From IMG/VR virus record IMGVR_UViG_3300030106_006913, positions 1 to 33,328 of that record: 33,328 nt of DNA. One strand, 5' to 3'. A model generated the notes under the pieces. It worked only from the letters and a program-made list of their open reading frames with translations. It made no database searches and had not been told where the DNA came from. Position numbers and translations under genes: made by a program. Position 1 is the stretch's first letter; each line of letters opens with the position of its first letter. The stretch is from a virus. Positions 15,896-26,681 of this stretch are shown in pieces.

Positions 15896-16183
15896 TTATT
15901 TAAAAATGAAACTTACAGTATAATTATCTATTTCAGAACCTAAATTTCTAATAGATTCGTTACCAACATCTAGAATTCTTTTCCTAATCCAGTTTACCTT
16001 TTGAGGGGTAAAGTGGTTAGCCGTATCAATTATTTTGTGGTATTCCTGCGGAATGTTCTCATACAGCTTTTCATAATGGAAGTCATGATCTTTTTTCATG
16101 TCTTCAACCATGATTAACATCATTTTAAAAAGCCTAGAAATCTCCCCATTGGAGCTTTCAGATAATTTTTTTTTAGCATCCAT
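15896..16183 (-). CDS. Small helical protein of unknown function, first gene of the tail operon
   Basis: A 95-residue soluble protein, helical by composition, with a Met-rich amphipathic segment (LFKMMLIMVEDMKKDHDFHY) and a C-terminal IDNYTVSFIFK strand. I do not recognise a family. The start ATG at 16183 has AGGATTAAGG just upstream as ribosome binding site. It opens the minus-strand tail operon and diverges from the plus-strand gene at 16229. Twelve bases separate it from the putative tail assembly gene downstream, so a role in tail assembly or neck formation is plausible but unproven. Confidence 0.6.
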   Translation of the reverse strand: MDAKKKLSESSNGEISRLFKMMLIMVEDMKKDHDFHYEKLYENIPQEYHKIIDTANHFTPQKVNWIRKRILDVGNESIRNLGSEIDNYTVSFIFK

Positions 16184-20768: not shown

Positions 20769-20801
20769 AAAAAAAAAGCCACCCCCCGCAGGGAGTGGCT
20801 T
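20769..20801 (-). terminator. Strong intrinsic terminator after the major capsid gene
   Basis: On the minus strand a GC-rich stem: AGCCACTCCC (20800-20791), loop TGCG, GGGGGTGGCT (20786-20777), fully paired with one G-T wobble, and one more A-T pair outside. It is followed directly by an eight- or nine-base T-run. It lies 24 bases past the capsid stop and separates the head operon from the two small genes downstream. Confidence 0.93.
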
Positions 20802-20824: not shown

Positions 20825-21982
20825 TTATACGATAACTCCGCAAAGGACACGGTTGTCAAGGACAACACGACCTTCTTCGATTGCACCGTAGTAGCCAATC
20901 TTATTCTGACGAACGCTATACTGGTCGTCAGCAAGAAGAGTCATTTCGCTTCCGCTTTCGGAATCAGTAGCAACAACCCTCATGAGAGAATCGCGGCTAC
21001 GATCAACACCGACAACGATTTGCGTAGCAGCACCGTCAAAGTTTGCTCCACCAGTGTTATCGAACTTGTAGTAATCAGTAGTGCTAGCGGCAGTCGCAAA
21101 GATAGTGTTAAACTTCTCTCCTTTACCCATCTCATTGAACTCAAGGATATTGAGACCCATGAAGCTGTTGACTCCTGCATTCCTGAAAAGATCCTCACGG
21201 ACAGAATCAGGAGCGGCAACAGGATTAGCAGTAGTAGCATTTCCACCAGCACCTGCTCCATCACCACCACGGGTGTTTACAGGGTTATAAGCCATTGCAC
21301 GAATGCTAGCTACAGCCTCAGGGGACATGATAAGATCCGTAATTCCACGAACGCGAGTGGTAGGAGTTCCACCAATCCATGAGCTATTAATACGCTTCGC
21401 AAGAGTTTGAAGATTATTAAAGTCATCCATGAGGAGTGATCCTGCAAGAGCAGAACGGAATACCTGACCATTACCCGTAAGGGGAGAGGTCTTAATAGTA
21501 GCATTTGCAAGAGAAGTCATAAGCAAAGTAGCGGAAGTGCGCTCCTGCTTAAGAAGAAGTTCTTGTGCAACGCGAGTAAAAGTTTTACCAACAACGTCCA
21601 TGCGGCTCTTAGCAGCATAACGACGATCAAAATCGACCGCAGCATTAAGGTTGTAAGTAGCCACTTTCAATTCAGAAGCGGTTGGCAACACTTGGTTACT
21701 GGGAAGACCACCTGCGTGAGTCTGACTCCAAATCCTGACGTAATCTTCGTCAGAGATGTCGTAGTAGAGATCAAGTGGGATGCTTGGGTTATCATCAGCA
21801 TCAAACTGAAGTGATTTGAACAAGGTGCTGACCGTAGGAGCATTGTTGAGAACTTCGGCCAATACAGGTCCGATAAACTCAGCCAGTGCAACCTGCGCTT
21901 CGTATGCAACATTGCGGTTGCGAGAAGCCATAGCCTTAACAAGTTCAACTTGTTCTGGGGTTCTTTTTAAAGTAATATTCAT
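20825..21982 (-). CDS. Major capsid protein, HK97-type (likely)
   Basis: A 385-residue protein. The N-terminus is helical (LVKAMASRNRNVAYEAQVAL) with a P-domain-like region (PSIPLDLYYDISDEDYVRIW), a spine-helix-like stretch (GKTFTRVAQELLLKQERTSA) and the end KIGYYGAIEEGRVVLDNRVL, in the style of HK97-fold major capsid proteins in marine phages. Strong ribosome site: AAAGGA nine bases before the ATG. It follows protease and decoration protein and is followed by a strong terminator, the usual arrangement for the most abundant virion protein. Sampled lines of the gene are near 48 percent G+C against under 30 percent in part of the tape measure. No separate N-terminal delta domain is visible, in keeping with scaffold being fused to the protease. 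Confidence 0.88.
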   Translation of the reverse strand: MNITLKRTPEQVELVKAMASRNRNVAYEAQVALAEFIGPVLAEVLNNAPTVSTLFKSLQFDADDNPSIPLDLYYDISDEDYVRIWSQTHAGGLPSNQVLPTASELKVATYNLNAAVDFDRRYAAKSRMDVVGKTFTRVAQELLLKQERTSATLLMTSLANATIKTSPLTGNGQVFRSALAGSLLMDDFNNLQTLAKRINSSWIGGTPTTRVRGITDLIMSPEAVASIRAMAYNPVNTRGGDGAGAGGNATTANPVAAPDSVREDLFRNAGVNSFMGLNILEFNEMGKGEKFNTIFATAASTTDYYKFDNTGGANFDGAATQIVVGVDRSRDSLMRVVATDSESGSEMTLLADDQYSVRQNKIGYYGAIEEGRVVLDNRVLCGVIV

Positions 21983-22686: not shown

Positions 22687-24177
22687 TTAAGAAATTTCAA
22701 TGTTGTCGCGTGAAAACGCTGCTTTAAACTTGTCGCGAAGGCTTGGCTCCTCAGAAGCAACAGCTTCATTGGAATTAGCAACTGGAGCATCAACAGCTTC
22801 AGCATCGTCAAGAGCTTGCTCTACTTGGACTTCTTCCTCAGAAGCATTAGAGACTCTTTTTGCGACTTCTTCATCAATACGGGCTTGAATCTGGGCATCA
22901 AATTCAGCTTGAACTTCTTTGTTTTTGTGTTTCCACAAAACTTCAAGTTTGGAAGCGAATGCCTCGTAAGCCTCTTGATCTTCTAGACTCTTAAGTTCGG
23001 AAGCGAGAAATTCGCGATCTTGATCATCAAGTTCAAATTTTTCGTCAATATCTTCCATGCGCTGATTGAACGCTGCTACAGCTTCATCGGCTTTTTTCTC
23101 ATTTTCAAAGTGAGAAATCCGCTCGTTGGCAGAGCCAAGCTTTTCTTCAAGTTCAGCCACAGAAGACTTGAGGTCTTCCATTTCTTTGATTTTACCTTCT
23201 TTCGCCAATCGCTGCTCCTCGATATCTTTGCGATATTGCTCGTCGCGTTGGCGAATAGCGTCTGCAAAAGTATCAGTCATTGAAGCGACAGCTTCTTTAG
23301 AGAATTTCTTCTCATTAAGAAGATCCTTTAGTTCGTTAAGAGTCTTTTCAAGTTCCATATCAATGATGTTCTTTTGGTTGTTTACATTTAAATTATTATT
23401 TTGTGAAATTTTATCACGTTTATCATTTATAAAAACTTTGTTGGTTTTGGGGCTTTCCCCATACAACCCTTTCACATCGGCAGCAGGATTCATTGTATAT
23501 GCAATTCCCAATGGGTATATATCACCCATAATTAAACGATAAATATCTTCGCCATCATCAGTTTGACCAGACCCCCCATAACTCCTTAAATTACCTTGTA
23601 ATTCCATAATTTCCTCGGGGTCACTGACAATTTTTGCATCACTTAAAATGTCACTTCCCACCGCTAAAACAAAATCATTAAATCCTACTTCCCAGCTAGC
23701 TGATACTTTCTGATAAGCCTTATCTTCGGGGTCTAAAGATTTTTCTACTAAATTTGTAAAATTAGGATTAACCGTTTTGTATAAAACTGCCCCAAGAGCA
23801 ATATTAAAAGGCTCTTGAATTGTTTTTACTTCCTCTTCTCCAAGTAAACGACTTGAAGCAAAATCACTATATCCCGCAGAAACAATATGACCCACAACTT
23901 TTTGTTTGTCGTGTTCTATGTTTGTAGGCTTATGGATAAAGTTTTTAGTATACCTCACCGCAGTAGAAGTATCCATCCCATCACCATTTTTATTAAATTT
24001 ATTTACTACCGCCGCATTAAAGGCAACACCCAAAAGATCTTTGTTGCTCTCGTAATTGATGTCTTTTGGAACTAAAGGTTCTAAATTTTCCAAGGAAGCC
24101 TTAGAAATTAAAGAAGCTTCATTGATTTCACAAGGAAGTAAGAGAGCCTCAAAAGTTGTAGTGTATTTGTAATCCAT
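22687..24177 (-). CDS. Prohead protease fused to scaffold domain
   Basis: A 496-residue protein that appears to join a maturation protease to a scaffold. Residues 1-235 resemble phage prohead proteases: NIEHDKQKVVGHI with His89 and KVSASWEVGF with Ser159 or Ser161 are the likely catalytic pair. A polar Asn/Lys linker (about 250-272) leads into a long charged coiled coil (about 274-430) and a C-terminal RDKFKAAFSRDNIEI peptide like those that bind capsid protein. The start is the ATG at 24177, with GGAG ten bases upstream and overlap (TAATG) with the stop of the frameshifted segment; an ATG 18 bases earlier (24195) is less likely. An internal in-frame ATG at 23358 begins exactly at the scaffold part. 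Confidence 0.84.
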   Translation of the reverse strand: MDYKYTTTFEALLLPCEINEASLISKASLENLEPLVPKDINYESNKDLLGVAFNAAVVNKFNKNGDGMDTSTAVRYTKNFIHKPTNIEHDKQKVVGHIVSAGYSDFASSRLLGEEEVKTIQEPFNIALGAVLYKTVNPNFTNLVEKSLDPEDKAYQKVSASWEVGFNDFVLAVGSDILSDAKIVSDPEEIMELQGNLRSYGGSGQTDDGEDIYRLIMGDIYPLGIAYTMNPAADVKGLYGESPKTNKVFINDKRDKISQNNNLNVNNQKNIIDMELEKTLNELKDLLNEKKFSKEAVASMTDTFADAIRQRDEQYRKDIEEQRLAKEGKIKEMEDLKSSVAELEEKLGSANERISHFENEKKADEAVAAFNQRMEDIDEKFELDDQDREFLASELKSLEDQEAYEAFASKLEVLWKHKNKEVQAEFDAQIQARIDEEVAKRVSNASEEEVQVEQALDDAEAVDAPVANSNEAVASEEPSLRDKFKAAFSRDNIEIS

Positions 24178-24386
24178 TACTTTTTCTCCATCCAACTTTT
24201 AGGAAGAGCACTTTCTGCCCCTATTTTTTTAGCCCTTTTGATAAGTTTGCTTTTAAATTCCTCAAAGCTCATAGAGCCCTCATATCTTCCCCAACTGCTT
24301 ACAGCATTTTTCACATCCCTAGCTGATAAAACAGGAAATGACCTTCTTTTGGGATCAAGAAAGTCACTATCTTTTAATTCACTTCT
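24177..24386 (-). CDS. Downstream (-1 frame) segment of the frameshifted head gene, DUF6582-like
   Basis: Sixty-nine codons, beginning at the last A of the A9 run, with no start codon: the frame has a TAA just upstream and no ATG, GTG or TTG before the conserved part. Seen: DSDFLDPKRRSFPVLSARDV, then KNAVSSWGRY, FEEFKSKLIKRAKKIGAESA and LPKSWMEKK. The pattern F-x-D-P-x-x-R-x-(Y/F)-P followed by two helices and R-A-K-x-x-G recalls DUF6582-type phage head proteins. The stop overlaps the protease start as TAATG, which ties it into the operon as a real gene. It is expected as the C-terminus of a fusion made by -1 slippage, with the protein at 24374-24736 as N-terminal part (186 residues in all). 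Confidence 0.75.
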   Translation of the reverse strand, partial: RSELKDSDFLDPKRRSFPVLSARDVKNAVSSWGRYEGSMSFEEFKSKLIKRAKKIGAESALPKSWMEKK

Positions 24387-24736
24387 TTTTTTTTACCGAA
24401 TCTTTCGGCAGCAATGTCTGTGAGCATTTGAGCATAGCTTTTCTTGGGCTTGATTTTTTCGCCCTCCATCTTTTTCTTGGAGTCCTTGTCGAACTTCATA
24501 TCTTTCTTTAAAGCTTTTTTCTCTGCGTCTTTTTTCTCTGAAGGAGCACCCTTGTCTAGCTTTTTGATCTTACTCTTATCGTCTTTGATAGCGTCCTTCT
24601 CATGCTCGACTTTTTCCTTTTTGGTGTCTTGCTTGAGTTCTTTCTTATCAATTTTGTCGTATTGCTTCTTATCCAACTTCGCTTGAATTTCTTCAGCAGA
24701 AAGGGATACTTCGATGTTGCAGTTATTCTTGTTCAT
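24374..24736 (-). CDS. Lys/Glu-rich head protein, zero-frame product
   Basis: A 120-residue, extremely charged protein (KKELKQDTKKEKVEHEKDAI; KKDAEKKALKKDMKFDKDSK) ending AQMLTDIAAERFGKKKEVN. The charged middle is likely a single helix or disordered region. It starts within the portal gene (14-base overlap) and lies between portal and protease, where scaffold or internal head proteins are found. The zero frame stops four codons after an A9 run. Slippage by -1 at A-AAA-AAA replaces the last residues with the conserved segment 24386-24177. The short form may itself be functional, or may be only the termination product. Which is the main product cannot be read from sequence. Confidence 0.68.
   Translation of the reverse strand: MNKNNCNIEVSLSAEEIQAKLDKKQYDKIDKKELKQDTKKEKVEHEKDAIKDDKSKIKKLDKGAPSEKKDAEKKALKKDMKFDKDSKKKMEGEKIKPKKSYAQMLTDIAAERFGKKKEVN
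24386..24394 (-). other. A9 slippery run, candidate -1 ribosomal frameshift site
   Basis: Nine As on the minus strand. In the zero frame they read AAA AAA AAA then GAA GTG AAT TAA. The heptamer A-AAA-AAA at 24392-24386 permits tandem -1 slippage into AGA AGT GAA and the downstream conserved frame. A small hairpin CCGAA-AGA-TTCGG lies directly upstream. No strong downstream pseudoknot is evident by eye. A sequencing length error in the run remains the main alternative. Confidence 0.65.
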
Positions 24737-26681
24737 GGCTATGATATAAAATGGCTGATGGATATGTGTCTAAAGTGTGTTCGGCAGAAATATCTAAAAC
24801 TTCTTTTAAAGTATTCAAATTTTCTATTTCGTTAAAATCCTTTACACACGATTCTAGCGTTTCGTCCCAATATTCTTTGGCTTGTGAGCAAACAATAGAT
24901 TCACAGAGAGTATTAACCATATCCTCTTGATCAGAACTTAAGCTATCAACCTTAAGTTTTTTGCTTATTTTACCCTTTGCTTCATGAATTAAGTTATCTA
25001 TTTCATAGATAGTTTTTTGTATGCTAGCTCTAGAGTATTTTGCATTTGCAAGAGGGATATCAGTAGTTCCCTCTGGTCTTCCCGCCTGTTTCTTTGGCCC
25101 ACCATTAGGAGAAAATACTGGCACCCCACCCACTATTGGGTTGTAATATCCCTGCTCTCTCTCTTCTAAGAAGTCTTTTTGAGCATCGTTAAGTTGATCT
25201 GGCTCGGGGAACTTTCCATTATGGAACATTTCCATTCCTTGTTTTGGTGTAATGATACCAAGCTCCATAAGTCGAGTAGAAGCCCTCATAAGCTGAACTT
25301 CATCCCTCATATCAATATCCTTCATCCTAGCCTCTGGCCATGACCTAAAGCCAAGGTTCTTAGCAATTCTTTTAATTTCTTTGTTTAAAAAATCATTTAA
25401 AAATCCGTATCTAGACTCTTGTAATCTATCAATAAAGATTTGAGCTTTAACTTGTGTAGAGTTGAATTTTTCTTCCCCGACCACAATGTTTTGTAAACCC
25501 TGCTTAATGTCTTCGTTCAGAATTTGATATTTCTCTGGACCCAAAACTAAGTTTAATTCAGGAATGATAAACTCTGCTTTTGTAGTATAGTCTGAAACCA
25601 ACACACGACCAACACTCTCATTTTTAAATAGATTTTGCATCGCCGCCATGTTGTTTGGGTTAACACCCCCTTTATCTGGATCTGCACCCATAGTGATAAG
25701 CAATATAACGTTTTCAACCGTTCTAGTAATTGCCTGATCCATTTTCTTAAGTTCCAGCTTTGCATTGATGTCTTCTAAAACAGGGAAACCAAAAGGAATG
25801 GCAAATGGCTCGTAGTCTTGCTTTTTATAAAAAGAATAACTTAATTTATTAGGGTCTAGGTCTAACGACAAACCTTTTCGCGAGTAGGAGCCGTCTCTAA
25901 TCGCTTGTTGTGTTTCTAAGTCTAAACTTTGAAATATAGCTAAATCTTCGTCTGTTTGAGGGCTAGCCAATCTAGCTATCTCGTAATCAGATAAAACTTT
26001 TTGATAAGCTCCGCTGTAAGTAAAAGTAGTAGCTCTTTTTGCGACCACATCGTAAGGATTAAGCAATACATAACGCAAAGGAATACTATTGTCCCCTCTT
26101 CCTATAGTGCCTACTTGATTTATTAATTTTGCGTAATCTTCAGCTTTGAACTTTCCATCTATTCTATATAAAAATATATTTCCACTTCTGTAATATTCTC
26201 TAAAATACTGATCTTTTAAATTAATTATATTTACCCTTTTAAACCATTCATAAAAAAACTCTCTGCTTTTGCGAGTCCCTCCCTCTAAGTAAATATCGGT
26301 ATTTGTAAACTCTGACATTATATCTATGGCATTACGGAAAACCGCCACATTAGAATAAGCCTTCTGACACAATTCAATTGCATCTCTACAAGTCACACCG
26401 TCAGCCGCATACTCATAAGGCAACAAACCCCTCCTAATACTAGAAAACCTATCTTTTGTTTGTGCAAAAGCTGCCCTATTATATCGGGAGCCCTTAAAAC
26501 TGGACTCTGTTAAACCTTGCCTTCTTGCTTTGGATACTTCGCTAAATGATGCATCTGAAGTGTAAAAAGGCTCTCCCAACAATTCAGGAGAAGGCTCTTC
26601 TTTACTCGGGTGAGATGGGTGTTCTTGGGGATTAAATTGATTCCAATATTCAGAACGTTTAGTATATTTTCTTTTGGACAT
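24723..26681 (-). CDS. Portal protein
   Basis: A 652-residue portal subunit, the dodecameric ring through which DNA enters and leaves the head. Seen: after a polar, probably disordered start (residues 1-80), LLPYEYAADGVTCRDAIELC; AVFRNAIDIMSEFTNTDIYL followed by FFYEWFKRVN and YFREYYRSGNIFLYR, the conserved opening of many phage portals; then a long core with ITRTVENVILLITMGADPDK and a clip/crown region ending in a helical tail (YWDETLESCVKDFNEIENLN). It follows the large terminase after a 48-base gap that holds two palindromes and a GTGTAA element, and overlaps the next gene by 14 bases. Its place between terminase and protease supports the call strongly. Confidence 0.88.
   Translation of the reverse strand: MSKRKYTKRSEYWNQFNPQEHPSHPSKEEPSPELLGEPFYTSDASFSEVSKARRQGLTESSFKGSRYNRAAFAQTKDRFSSIRRGLLPYEYAADGVTCRDAIELCQKAYSNVAVFRNAIDIMSEFTNTDIYLEGGTRKSREFFYEWFKRVNIINLKDQYFREYYRSGNIFLYRIDGKFKAEDYAKLINQVGTIGRGDNSIPLRYVLLNPYDVVAKRATTFTYSGAYQKVLSDYEIARLASPQTDEDLAIFQSLDLETQQAIRDGSYSRKGLSLDLDPNKLSYSFYKKQDYEPFAIPFGFPVLEDINAKLELKKMDQAITRTVENVILLITMGADPDKGGVNPNNMAAMQNLFKNESVGRVLVSDYTTKAEFIIPELNLVLGPEKYQILNEDIKQGLQNIVVGEEKFNSTQVKAQIFIDRLQESRYGFLNDFLNKEIKRIAKNLGFRSWPEARMKDIDMRDEVQLMRASTRLMELGIITPKQGMEMFHNGKFPEPDQLNDAQKDFLEEREQGYYNPIVGGVPVFSPNGGPKKQAGRPEGTTDIPLANAKYSRASIQKTIYEIDNLIHEAKGKISKKLKVDSLSSDQEDMVNTLCESIVCSQAKEYWDETLESCVKDFNEIENLNTLKEVLDISAEHTLDTYPSAILYHSHEQE

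Follow-up and report, generated by a model that had tools for sequence, protein, structure and literature searches.

We identified, on the minus strand of the window (the whole 33,328-nucleotide stretch of viral DNA that was analysed), a gene lying between a portal gene and a protease-like gene that very probably owes two products, a short and a long protein, to a maintained programmed −1 frame change at a run of nine A's (A9). Standard decoding at A9 would yield a short form, 120 residues long and rich in Lys and Glu. Some of the mRNAs, having gained one A by RNA-polymerase slippage, or alternatively some ribosomes stepping back one base on A AAA AAA, would yield a 186-residue long form, in which the short-form sequence is followed by a small helical DUF6582-like domain. 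The locus is organized as follows.

24723-26681, minus strand: portal protein, from a weak PHROG match (phrog_16240, E 0.017) and position.
24374-24736, minus strand: 0-frame ORF, the short form, 120 aa, 53% K/E/D/R.
24401-24406, minus strand: GAAAGA, purine-rich Glu-Arg codons 6 nt upstream of the run, a possible weak Shine-Dalgarno-like stimulator.
24386-24394, minus strand: candidate A9 slip site, AAA AAA AAA in the 0 frame, with the heptamer A AAA AAA and then G; the same in 23 distinct A9 haplotypes (29 contigs, 20 metagenomes).
24374-24376, minus strand: 0-frame stop TAA ending the short form, after GAA GTG AAT.
24337-24368, minus strand: 12-bp stem-loop 17 nt downstream of the run, unsupported as a conserved stimulator.
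24177-24386, minus strand: −1-frame DUF6582-like domain, 69 codons and a stop, without a start codon, ending in TAATG.
24177-24736, minus strand: predicted long form, 186 aa, made if the frame slips by −1 or the mRNA carries an added A.
22687-24177, minus strand: putative prohead protease-scaffold, by position only, starting at the TAATG overlap.

On this strand the portal ORF, whose end overlaps the 120-codon ORF by 14 nt, is followed by that ORF, by the startless frame and by a 496-codon ORF opening at TAATG. The 120-codon ORF ends in phase as GGT AAA AAA AAA GAA GTG AAT TAA. In the −1 frame a TAA (24395-24393) spans the GGT-AAA boundary, after which the frame is open to the TAA at 24179-24177; its 69 sense codons are counted from AGA at 24386 (the last A of the run), ATG, GTG and TTG are all absent ahead of the conserved part, and its stop overlaps the ATG of the next gene. 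On re-reading, the coordinates and counts of the original prediction proved correct, and its description of a Lys/Glu-rich short form and of a startless 69-codon frame, with a TAA just upstream and TAATG coupling, was borne out by the sequence; reading one A twice does join both frames into one 186-residue protein. The fused single-frame homologues that it had named as a guide to the domain order also exist, with the long-form layout contained in a single ORF of 178-365 aa in 15 relatives.

An A9 tract by itself is uninformative, because only 3 are observed in this AT-rich window when 6.3 are expected from shuffles, and the case therefore rests on comparison and conservation. A further exact A9 tract at 16166-16174 (minus strand) provides the first Lys codons (MDAKKKL) of ORF 15896-16183. 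For comparison, 80 viral contigs carrying the downstream gene were gathered from collections of metagenomic fragments. The census motif was the codons of LKDSDFLDP, which lie 3′ of the run and exclude it so as to avoid bias. Among 53 haplotypes bearing this motif, 24 were split, all with exactly A9 (24/24), and 29 were continuous, none with A9 (0/29). A separate scan for the A9 pattern returned 29 split contigs from 20 metagenomes; two further fits to this pattern were set aside, one an A10 contig and the other a match in L218, which sits in an ORF that we take to be a terminase and was judged to be a chance match. Other Lys-Lys-Lys triplets in the same ORFs were never written as A9 (0/24), whereas the slip-site triplet always was (23/23), which suggests avoidance elsewhere and selection here, these ORFs being related and thus non-independent.

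Substitutions counted over a tree built from 22 distinct A9 haplotypes point to constraint on both frames. Inferred changes at codon positions 1/2/3 numbered 32/30/125 in the upstream 0 frame and 22/13/198 in the downstream −1 frame, with 0 within the run, and the codon-position periodicity flips from the 0 to the −1 frame exactly at the run. For the −1-frame domain we obtained a pN/pS of 0.039 at a pS of 0.62 (62% of synonymous sites differ, which is near saturation), and reading those bases in either of the other two frames gave values above 3. Throughout the A9 haplotypes the 0-frame stop is always TAA, and the overlapping −1-frame Leu codon is TTA or CTA. A programmed −1 frame change is expected to leave such a pattern, with both frames constrained, a switch at the slip site, and a site that is kept while its flanks diverge. 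The alignment of relatives proposed by the original prediction thus supports programmed shifting, both the A-run and the two frames being conserved in this group of uncultured tailed phages.

Because long homopolymers are error-prone and the domain is absent from many relatives, a decayed gene or a sequencing error could be invoked, but this explanation is extremely improbable given that one run length recurs in 29 contigs, drawn from 20 data sets, and that the shifted frame is under strong purifying selection; a pN/pS of 0.04 combined with position-specific changes in that frame contradicts both decay and assembly error. It is also highly improbable that the domain in the −1 frame is made as a small protein of its own, from a non-canonical start or by re-initiation after the short ORF. 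Three distant homologues (L208, L197 and L205) do encode the domain by itself in a short ORF that has a start codon, a configuration that the original prediction had regarded as adverse, but no A9 locus shares it: no conserved ATG, GTG or TTG occurs before +122 in the A9 haplotypes, and −1-frame conservation begins right at the run, matching the fused relatives there.

Four layouts are common between the portal gene and the downstream gene, namely the A9 split, a single fused ORF, a Lys-rich ORF that lacks the domain, and absence of the gene. A second lineage, L122 and L141, has the same split and the same A9, with portal proteins about 49-50% and protease-like proteins 43% identical to those of the window. 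A tree of the domain, read with the caveats of long branches and short-segment recombination, places them among fused relatives and rejects the grouping of all A9 rows (p-AU 2e-7). In the portal and protease tree the layouts are interleaved, which points to exchange or repeated change of the gene. One ancient A9 with several losses could nonetheless account for the two A9 lineages in place of two origins. The residue ahead of Lys-Lys (or Glu-Lys, Lys-Pro) is Gly in 32 of 32 single-frame homologues, the A10 one excluded, and the corresponding residue in both A9 lineages is Lys, not Gly. No copy of the domain was found in the 89.7-kb contig G001, and other relatives have the fused form only. The domain, missing in some relatives, is hence a modular part that is not universally needed, and two forms are unnecessary for the group at large. 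The Lys-rich gene is a mosaic in which an EF-hand-like loop (DKNKDGKxxKEDFE) often occurs along with further inserted modules (L044, L022-L031, L057 and others). Searches for relatives outside this set gave no match for a nucleotide query of a phage collection, no named relative for the portal and protease-like proteins, and no confirmed relative for the domain among genome contigs.

The single A10 locus, L025, is nested in the A9 clade and has one continuous ORF with the same protein layout. It would fit phase variation at the DNA level, in which the tract would alternate by mutation between nine A's (short form) and ten (long form), each phage making one form. We consider this very improbable, as A9 occurs in 24 haplotypes, A10 in one and A8 in none, whereas a toggling tract should show mixed lengths over 20 metagenomes. 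The original prediction had counted other run lengths against itself; across contigs none occurs at a split locus, and the one A10 relative does read continuously. The census, the constraint, the Lys-Lys-Lys comparison, the second lineage and the A10 relative together make it very unlikely that the split reflects a sequencing error, a pseudogene or an independent start for the domain.

A programmed −1 frame change with two products is thus strongly supported by comparative evidence, as originally predicted; the slip itself may be RNA polymerase's and not the ribosome's. The run has the length associated with transcriptional slippage (A or T repeated about nine times or more), being A9 in all split loci, and it also offers, in phase with the 0 frame, the A AAA AAA heptamer of the X XXY YYZ form associated with ribosomal slipping. 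Transcriptional slippage in bacteria has been reported on 9-nt runs of A or T (PMC5009743), and slippage of bacterial RNA polymerase reportedly requires at least 7 T's and even more A's (PMC6260861). From these sequence features we slightly prefer RNA-polymerase slippage, because all nine A's are kept, the Gly of continuous relatives is replaced by Lys and no conserved structure turned up downstream; the substitution of Lys for Gly makes nine A's where seven suffice for the ribosomal heptamer. Both levels may act.

A −1 shift by the ribosome alone at A AAA AAA, aided by GARAGR or an unrecognised structure, would change only the level of the slip, and we rate it at somewhat less than an even chance. 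The heptamer fits, and GARAGR lies upstream of the run in 23 of 23 A9 haplotypes as against 19 of 33 single-frame ones, a difference confounded by descent and coding. The window also has the downstream 12-bp hairpin, which is not supported as a stimulator: its spacing of about 17-20 nt from the run is larger than usual, it shows no excess pairing, and it is weakened in L041 and disrupted in L122. A test of simple stem-loops detected no conserved structure downstream of the run, where pairing did not exceed that of synonymous column shuffles. With no conserved stimulator found, ribosomal slipping could be weak, and the ribosome would not need all nine of the A's that are kept.

The extra domain had originally been likened to DUF6582-type phage head proteins. 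Its match to DUF6582 (PF20223) falls below the Pfam cut-off of 27.3 bits, with a best score of 18 bits (E 0.003) in L122 and 16 bits (E 0.014) in the window. Profile comparison by hhalign aligns the domain, at a probability of 95% (E 6e-8), with the C-terminal part of the capsid maturation proteases of Gordonia phages; this C-terminal segment also matches positions 541-604 of phrog_80, the final stretch of that head maturation protease profile. By this comparison the domain is homologous to the DUF6582-like C-terminal module of the Gordonia proteases. Related domains thus occur in head-maturation genes; there they are in frame with the protease or alone, whereas here the domain is in the −1 frame. 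In L216 it precedes protease-like sequence within the same ORF, and elsewhere it is found at the front of Lys-rich genes. In the N-terminal arrangements of L142-L145 a second DUF6582-like copy seemingly lies ahead of the domain, as judged by eye only. AlphaFold models the domain, with fairly good confidence (pLDDT 85), as a small fold with two principal helices; predicted structures of proteins from uncultured phages match it. A fold search of the PDB gave no meaningful match, and profile searching against solved structures yielded no more than marginal matches over about 15-23 residues.

The neighbouring genes place the locus in a putative head region. The protease-like protein encoded at 22687-24177 matched no Pfam or PHROG family, and profile comparison gave no match between it and the Gordonia protease. 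In L141 and L147 the downstream protease-like proteins are longer, with open frames of 762 and 808 aa, and a PAP2 phosphatase match (PF01569, E 9e-10) occurs in two sequences of the protease-like alignment, perhaps these two. ORF 20825-21982 is the putative major capsid gene, by position; a T9 at 20769-20777 (plus strand), on the coding strand of this ORF just past its end, could be a terminator tail. The terms head protein and protease, and a fixed ratio of the two forms, are likewise suggested by position. A model of the whole long-type protein is mostly helical and of low confidence (pLDDT 61). Position, charge and this model make it about an even bet that both forms are components of a scaffold or prohead core. 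The C-terminal domain would then give a minority of scaffold molecules a contact with the capsid, portal or protease, a role suggested by analogy with lambda gpGT and with CsoS2B as compared with CsoS2A. Because only shifted ribosomes reach the TAATG overlap, slipping could also tune the next gene. We tentatively propose, while leaning slightly against the full combination, that a length-dependent A9 cassette for RNA polymerase, with Lys for a conserved Gly, arose at least twice and sets the fraction of scaffold that bears a capsid-, portal- or protease-binding domain, and that relatives switch between split, fused and domain-free states.

The frameshifted phage genes that are known, including those in the reviews consulted, are mostly those of tail chaperones, major capsid proteins or tail proteins. 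The original prediction knew of none described at the portal-protease position, and our search of open-licence papers likewise found no case of frameshifting in a scaffold or portal-protease gene. The present locus adds to them a gene between the portal and protease-like genes. It makes testable the dependence of head assembly on the ratio of two scaffold-like forms, with natural controls on offer in relatives that are split, fused, re-fused by one A, or without the domain. Automated gene calling will overlook the domain in these phages, since the shifted frame lacks a start codon.

Several known systems resemble this organization in part. In T4, genes between the portal and protease genes encode the charged proteins gp67 and gp68, for which we know of no frameshift. 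These small proteins belong to the inner core and are later degraded by the protease (PMC9958956). Gene 10 of T7 and T3 and the capsid genes of Lactobacillus phage A2 and Listeria phages are head-module genes from which frameshifting yields both a long and a short protein (PMC5009743), but they encode the major capsid protein, often with an Ig-like extension, whereas the gene described here is an accessory one between the portal and protease-like genes. Tail assembly chaperone genes shift at a short heptamer, such as GGGAAAG in TP901-1 (PMC4493119), in contrast to the A9 found here. Long homopolymers giving two length variants are known from Citrobacter rodentium tssM1 (A11) and Thermus dnaX (PMC4256274; PMC5009743). 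At tssM1 slippage reaches 20-25%, both forms are required, there are no clear stimulators, and the slip yields the form with the C-terminal domain (PMC4256274); both are bacterial genes in which slippage is proven, whereas here it is predicted. The CsoS2A and CsoS2B forms are scaffolds of an icosahedral shell, without and with a shell-binding C-terminal domain, that arise by frameshifting, a mechanism predicted for some members of the family but not all (PMC11481516; PMC5009743); this carboxysome system is unrelated, and the shift there yields the short form. In lambda gpG/gpGT, a −1 change near the 3′ end of a phage assembly gene gives a minor long form that gains a domain, and the ratio matters (PMC5009743); those are tail genes, whereas ours lies in the head region, and no sequence relation is claimed. 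Lambda gpG/gpGT and CsoS2A/CsoS2B are the closest working parallels.
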